Below, in pieces: positions 8,868 through 9,179 of a stretch of DNA of 35,499 nucleotides (within the stretch, counting starts at the first letter, position 1; each line of letters begins with the position of its first letter). Both the position numbers and the translations under genes were made by a program. A model generated the notes under the pieces. The model searched no databases, was not told the origin of the DNA, and saw only the letters and a list, made by a program, of their open reading frames with translations. The stretch is taken from positions 1-35,499 of the forward strand of contig DATFKK010000191.1 of assembly GCA_035268685.1 (NCBI GenBank). The letters run 5' to 3'. This DNA is from Candidatus Krumholzibacteriia bacterium. GTDB lineage: Bacteria; Krumholzibacteriota; Krumholzibacteriia; JAJRXK01.

Positions 8868-8981
8868 TGATCCCCGTCCGGGCTCACGGGCGGCGCGTCC
8901 GCCACGGTCTCTGGCACGGTCGACCCACGAGCTTTCCATGGCTGCCGGCGTTGCCTGTCGAGCCGGCGGCGTGCGAAGACA

Positions 8982-9108
8982 TTCGAAAAGGCTGGGTTCA
9001 GGGTTGTCAGTCGGCTGGGGCTGACAAAGGGAAACGTCAGCCTCTGGGGGCTGACATTCGCCGTTGTCATCCGTTGGCGGCTGACAACCCGAAATCCGGC
9101 TTTTCGAA
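8982..9108. repeat. Nested dyad: three 24-bp palindromes at 30-bp intervals inside a 9-bp inverted repeat
   Basis: Palindromes with consensus TTGTCAGCC-N6-GGCTGACAA occupy 9004-9027, 9034-9057 and 9064-9087. Each departs from perfect symmetry at one position. Six-base separators make the period exactly 30 bp. The set is bracketed by TTCGAAAAG (8982-8990) and CTTTTCGAA (9100-9108), with 13 and 12 bases between bracket and array. The centre of the middle palindrome (9045.5) is also the centre of the whole structure. It could be an operator array, a transcription terminator cluster for the converging genes, or fused ends of an IS21-like element. Confidence 0.8.
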
Positions 9109-9179
9109 GAACGAATTCACCGCCCGACAACACGCGGCGACACCGCACGGCAGCGATCGACACGCGTGGATCCAGCAGA

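Follow-up and report, generated by a model that had tools for sequence, protein, structure and literature searches.

Among the closest described systems are the REP/BIME repeats with their RAYT proteins, in which regularly spaced palindromes lie at gene ends or between convergent genes and the protein gene is flanked by copies (PMC2817692, PMC3733652). The GTAG-tagged REP arrays of Planctomycetota belong to the superfamily described in PMC3733652. MITEs are short, non-coding and dispersed, with terminal inverted repeats, and the cooperative multi-operator arrays of dimeric repressors contain near-identical palindromes about three helical turns apart. A further point of comparison is the SatD family (PF16264), which occurs in both bacteria and archaea. 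In the strains of Streptococcus pyogenes tested, satD is seemingly essential, yet it is accessory in the population (PMC11323703, 2024), and in streptococci it is unstudied except in S. mutans (PMC11323703). The literature searched, with subscription papers mostly outside its scope, held no description of SatD operators, of such an operator architecture or of a satD–DUF3307 gene pair.

Here, we focus on a palindrome array in the genome of a Candidatus Krumholzibacteriia bacterium, and on its relation to the SatD family. The window is the whole stretch of DNA that was analysed, 35,499 nucleotides in length.

Architecture of the array

The array and the repeat unit that contains it have the following parts, with the orientation in the window taken as reference:

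about 8964 to 9131, + strand: conserved repeat unit, about 168 bp long (columns conserved among seven copies)
8982 to 8990, + strand: left arm of the outer inverted repeat, TTCGAAAAG (sequence; kept in most copies)
9004 to 9027, no strand: palindrome 1, TTGTCAGTCGGCTGGGGCTGACAA, putative dimer site (sequence; GTCA/TGAC invariant in all copies)
9034 to 9057, no strand: palindrome 2, ACGTCAGCCTCTGGGGGCTGACAT, putative dimer site (sequence; motif search; half-site conservation)
9064 to 9087, no strand: palindrome 3, TTGTCATCCGTTGGCGGCTGACAA, putative dimer site (sequence; motif search; half-site conservation)
9100 to 9108, + strand: right arm of the outer inverted repeat, CTTTTCGAA (sequence; conservation across copies)
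9113 to 9131, + strand: right end of the unit, GAATTCACCGCCCGACAAC (consensus GGTTTCACCNGCCGACAAC; consensus-end search)

The three 24-bp palindromes follow one another at an exact 30-bp period, each has a single departure from symmetry, and the outer inverted repeat brackets the set, just as the initial annotation had described. The same annotation gave the whole block one symmetry centre at 9045.5, which holds for the palindromes but not for the outer repeat, whose centre at 9045.0 is displaced by half a base. The 127-bp block that it delimited (8982–9108) is real, but the conserved unit is wider. Chance is a poor explanation, as had been supposed: no array of three arose in 1.4 Mb of dinucleotide-shuffled window sequence, the RNA folding of the block stands at z = −8.2 and −8.1 against shuffles for the two strands, and the genome holds seven further copies.

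Dispersed copies in a single genome

The source genome (4.6 Mb in 202 contigs, 99% complete) was searched with the block, as the annotation had proposed, and the block proved to be one of eight dispersed copies. BLAST returned six more at 72–93% identity (contigs C189, C159, C101, C107 and, twice, C172), and a pattern search added an eighth on C129, which has a 31-bp period instead of the 30 bp of the other seven and shares with them the palindromic core and nothing more of the unit. A covariance model search of the genome found no copies beyond these eight. Conservation extends about 42 bp to the left and about 46 bp to the right of the 80-bp core, which gives the unit its length of about 168 bp and its unlike ends; outside it, identity among the seven similar copies drops to 31–32%. 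Perfect matches to the consensus right end occur at three other copies of the unit and nowhere else, and a search with this end returned no free-standing partner or larger element, only known copies and two sites with three mismatches that were taken as chance. Degenerate short tandem repeats of the CGACAACGCGCG type run past the right end of the copies C159, C172b and C191 (for example L027:7955–8000) and are similar to the palindromes at their GACAAC end.

The array is missing from all 79 other class genomes that were searched, among them one from its genus and two from its family. Absence from relatives had been put forward as a sign of an artefact; the relatives do lack the block, yet it is real, because it has eight copies in one genome and look-alikes beside satD genes in distant lineages.

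The seven similar copies are all intergenic, some of them between tandem genes. Convergent genes flank four of the seven, whereas in a 590-kb sample of the genome they flank 14 of 181 intergenic regions of at least 100 bp (p = 0.002); against all intergenic regions of the sample, which is the fairer test because insertion itself lengthens a region, the excess has p = 0.013. Genes whose 3′ ends adjoin a copy include groEL, purF and lipA, identified by reading their proteins. The window copy lies between two gene ends: a gene with Big_5 domains stops 153 bp before it starts, and a NUDIX gene that runs the opposite way ends 48 bp from it. C129 is upstream of a DoxX-like gene, about 90 bp from its longest start. 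Copies stand in both orientations relative to genes, and most are not in promoter positions. In answer to the earlier question of gene ends or transposases, the copies are mostly at gene ends, and no transposase gene was seen beside any of them. The boundaries of the unit are fuzzy. The nearest relative compared has a lipA that is 69% identical and a different gene downstream of it. Beside the C159 copy, an esterase-like ORF (L025:7008–7571) seems to be without its N-terminal part and is possibly a remnant.

Conservation of sequence and of pairing

GTCA/TGAC is invariant at 42 of 42 half-sites in the seven similar copies and also in C129, 48 of 48 overall; the pattern search demanded these letters, while the seven BLAST copies were found without such a demand. 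The remainder of the unit is much less constant, with pairwise identities among the seven copies of 61% in the N6 centres, 80% in the spacers and 61–76% in the inner flanks, and with copies that, half-sites apart, diverge to 64%. When the motif was sought with up to three mismatches, every match lay inside an array and none stood singly. The base preceding GTCA is T in 19 of 24 palindromes and C in the other five.

Fourteen of the 27 stem pairs never vary, and covariation of stem pairs does not rise above its control, the score being reached by 148 of 500 shuffles. The compensating changes that had been read into the palindromes thus find no support in the covariation analysis. Because the half-sites and stem core are invariant while covariation stays at shuffle level, it is sequence rather than pairing that is conserved. 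What selection preserves is thus the sequence, as in a site recognised by a DNA-reading protein, and not base pairing alone. The spacers are partly complementary, and perfectly so in C129, which leaves some room for a rod-like structure.

Palindrome arrays at satD genes of other lineages

A geometry scan for three copies of GTCA-N12-TGAC at 28–32 bp in the genomes of 85,000 species yielded 48 stretches. Eight of them, spread over at least six distant lineages, directly adjoin a gene of the SatD family (PF16264, with a C-terminal HTH); they come from ANGP1 (L039, L044), Zixibacteria (L040, L043), Deferribacteres (L048), bacterium USDV (L064), Planktomarina (L081) and Bacteroidales (L082). PF16264 is above cut-off at L039, L040, L048 and L064, and the assignment at L081 and L082 rests on a home-made HMM (E = 3e-7 and 1e-6); the partial protein at L082 has no Pfam match. 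The gene order is often satD, array, then DUF3307 or a similar membrane protein, and the array is found nowhere else in each of those eight genomes. No element homologous to the unit in the window was seen among the 48 matches, many of which are GTAG-tagged REP arrays of Planctomycetota, or coding or simple tandem repeats, unrelated to SatD.

satD and DUF3307 recur as neighbours in bacteria and on haloarchaeal plasmids (L039, L044, L048, L189, L190), and at L040 and L043 satD is paired with a shorter membrane protein of a similar kind. The REP palindromes, GTCAGGCTTTCCAGCCTGAC, often with GTAG before them, form tandem arrays with a period of about 30–32 bp and come mostly from Planctomycetota, on up to six contigs per genome (L041, L047, L049, L051, L053, L056, L059, L062, L063, L065, L068, L073, L074, L078, L086). 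Two viral contigs (L087:8221–8300; L088:18–97) contain GTCACGCAAGTTTGCGTGAC or its reverse complement at least three times at an exact 30-bp period; no SatD was found in phages and viral contigs.

The association was also measured on 16 satD genes that were found by protein search, and hence independently of any array: ten Pfam matches and G079 among the class relatives, and five on plasmids. A strict detector with a 26–32-bp period found upstream arrays at 6 of the 16, against 2 of 434 control genes (p about 2e-8), and at 5 of 13 once near-duplicates were removed (p = 2e-7). By eye, tandem palindromes are also present at L163, L165, L167 and L192. A 7-N6-7 detector gave 5 of 16 satD genes and 3 of the 434 controls. 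Since a single GC-rich genome supplied all the controls, the better comparison for AT-rich loci is with other windows of the same loci, where 0 of 246 were positive. The half-sites vary by lineage and the 7-N6-7 geometry is constant, with GTTCGCC-N6-GGCGAAC in two haloarchaea, TACAACC-N6-GGTTGTA in Natronosalvus, TTAGCCC-N6-GGGCTAA in Sphingomonas and GTTGGCC-N6-GGCCAAC in the class relative G046. At several satD genes of the class no array was detected. In three genomes (G014, G040, G017) a TTGACA-like box, read by eye, lies near or inside the palindromic stretch, which suggests that satD is controlled by its own product.

The SatD-like protein of the source genome

The two copies on C172 (C172a and C172b) are about 1.06 kb apart in the same direction, and flank a gene for a 224-aa protein on the other strand. 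Two copies within 1.1 kb have a chance of about 1% under random placement, so that the flanking of this gene is suggestive, and local duplication is possible. The protein has no PF16264 match of its own and its N-terminal motif is degenerate. Profile comparison with hhalign aligns it to SatD at 93% (E = 3e-7) alone and at 99.8% (E = 1.5e-30) together with three class homologues, over both the domain and the HTH, and the homologues in G007, G052 and G040 have PF16264 above cut-off. These profile alignments show the relationship and identify the protein as a divergent SatD-like relative. Palindromes stand upstream of satD in G079 and G040. DUF3307 is not next to the satD-like gene of the source genome.

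An AlphaFold model of the protein (pLDDT 73) has a beta-alpha-beta domain followed by a helical C-terminus with an HTH-like region. A PDB structure search with the model gave no match at E ≤ 0.001; the weak matches include adenylyl cyclases and the palm domains of Cas10/Cmr2, which are not significant and are suggestive only. A second weak SatD-like match is present on C192 (1244–1723, L170; 25.8 bits against a cut-off of 29), with a weaker counterpart in the same-genus genome and no array found nearby.

Alternative explanations

Several readings of the block compete, and the most substantial of them holds that the block is a dispersed palindromic repeat of a MITE-like or REP-like kind that a transposase moves in trans, with palindromes that serve mobility as cruciforms or ssDNA hairpins and a satD-like gene that adjoins two copies by chance. 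The eight dispersed copies, the defined ends, the outer inverted repeat and the restriction to one species all accord with this, as do the strong folding of both strands, the apparently truncated esterase-like ORF beside one copy and the four of seven copies between convergent genes, a position described for REPs (PMC3733652). The genome, however, has no Y1/RAYT transposase (PF01797, 0 matches at 99% completeness), there is no GTAG or CGTC tag, and the right end occurs on no larger element. The half-sites have also stayed invariant while the remainder decays, and mobility leaves the same geometry at satD genes of other lineages unexplained, all of which makes this reading unlikely, though still to be reckoned with. 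A miniature mobile repeat built round an operator, as its means of dispersal, is possible. Fused ends of an IS21-like element, or of another insertion sequence, have a single point in their favour, the inverted arrangement of multiple short repeats, and are very improbable: the three-palindrome unit is the same in all eight copies, the search for a larger element sharing its end found none and, with the neighbouring genes read and the nearest scanned, no transposase was seen beside any copy, so the earlier suggestion of IS21-like debris is disfavoured.

An RNA element of transcript ends, whether a bidirectional terminator or a 3′ UTR stabiliser, and folded as three hairpins or one long rod, would fit the position at gene ends, the folding z of about −8 and the spacer complementarity. 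Against it stand the missing U-tract, the both-way orientation of copies relative to genes, the place of C129 upstream of a gene, and the unvarying stem core with covariation at shuffle level. No Rfam family reached its gathering score, and the sub-threshold matches are nearly all microRNA hairpins with E values of up to 10. The role of a stop for two converging genes, proposed from the window copy, fits poorly with the terminator-like hairpin that groEL beside C159 has of its own, and with the copies between tandem genes and upstream of a gene. We consider an RNA element improbable.

A candidate SatD operator array

The remaining reading is the best supported: the block would be a three-site (six half-site) operator array of a SatD-family HTH protein, to which we assign a probability of about two in three; binding, cooperativity and effect are what we infer. 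The first role proposed at the outset was that of a cooperative operator array whose dimeric regulator was unknown; the family of that regulator can now be named. Dimers of a SatD-like protein would occupy each GTCAGCC-N6-GGCTGAC palindrome, and neighbouring dimers, 30 bp or about three helical turns apart, would bind cooperatively. The regulator in the source genome would be the 224-aa SatD-like protein from C172, encoded between two arrays. At satD itself self-control is likely, because several relatives have palindromes just upstream of satD near a promoter-like TTGACA.

Two of the eight copies lie beside satD, and the window copy and five others do not. An operator alone is insufficient as an explanation of the wider repeat unit at gene ends; an operator needs neither the outer repeat nor the unlike ends of the unit, features that suggest a repeat element. 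Probably the 168-bp unit first spread as a repeat, after which its binding sites would have been kept by selection. Dispersal to eight loci is seen in the source genome only. It is a tentative idea, and on balance doubtful, that SatD proteins are widespread regulators (a possible cyclase-like domain with an HTH) acting on tandem 7-N6-7 palindromes, and that the array described here is a dispersed element placing SatD assemblies at eight loci, mostly gene ends, where they would act as barriers to transcription, as organisers of the chromosome or as a self-spreading regulon.

The recurring operator geometry gives the SatD family a testable role, as DNA-binding and probably self-regulating proteins, and makes SatD sites predictable from sequence. 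The dispersed form raises the question of how an operator array becomes a genome-wide repeat with every binding site kept.

Comparison with known systems

The locus shares features with each of the systems outlined above. Like REP/BIME repeats it has regularly spaced palindromes at gene ends and a protein gene flanked by copies, but the genome is without RAYT or another Y1 transposase and the arrays are without the GTAG/CGTC tag; there are eight copies, not many, always with exactly three palindromes, and the flanked gene is SatD-like with an HTH. The unit is MITE-like in being short, non-coding and dispersed, with terminal inverted repeats and further degenerate symmetry; in contrast to MITEs, no partner transposon was found, no target duplication could be made out at the fuzzy boundaries, and the copies are old and diverged with invariant internal sites. 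The palindromes are spaced as in cooperative multi-operator arrays of dimeric repressors, but here the three fixed sites are part of a dispersed unit that is mostly off promoters.

In geometry the locus resembles SatD loci elsewhere, often with satD next to DUF3307, where tandem palindromes have a 28–31-bp period (30 bp here, 31 bp in C129). Adjoining palindromes are present at SatD loci of ANGP1, Zixibacteria, Deferribacteres, Bacteroidales, Planktomarina, Sphingomonas, Agrobacterium and haloarchaeal plasmids. In eight genomes such loci have one array per genome, at satD, whereas the genome studied here has eight arrays, which belong to a wider 168-bp unit and mostly lie a long way from satD, and no DUF3307 stands beside its satD-like gene.
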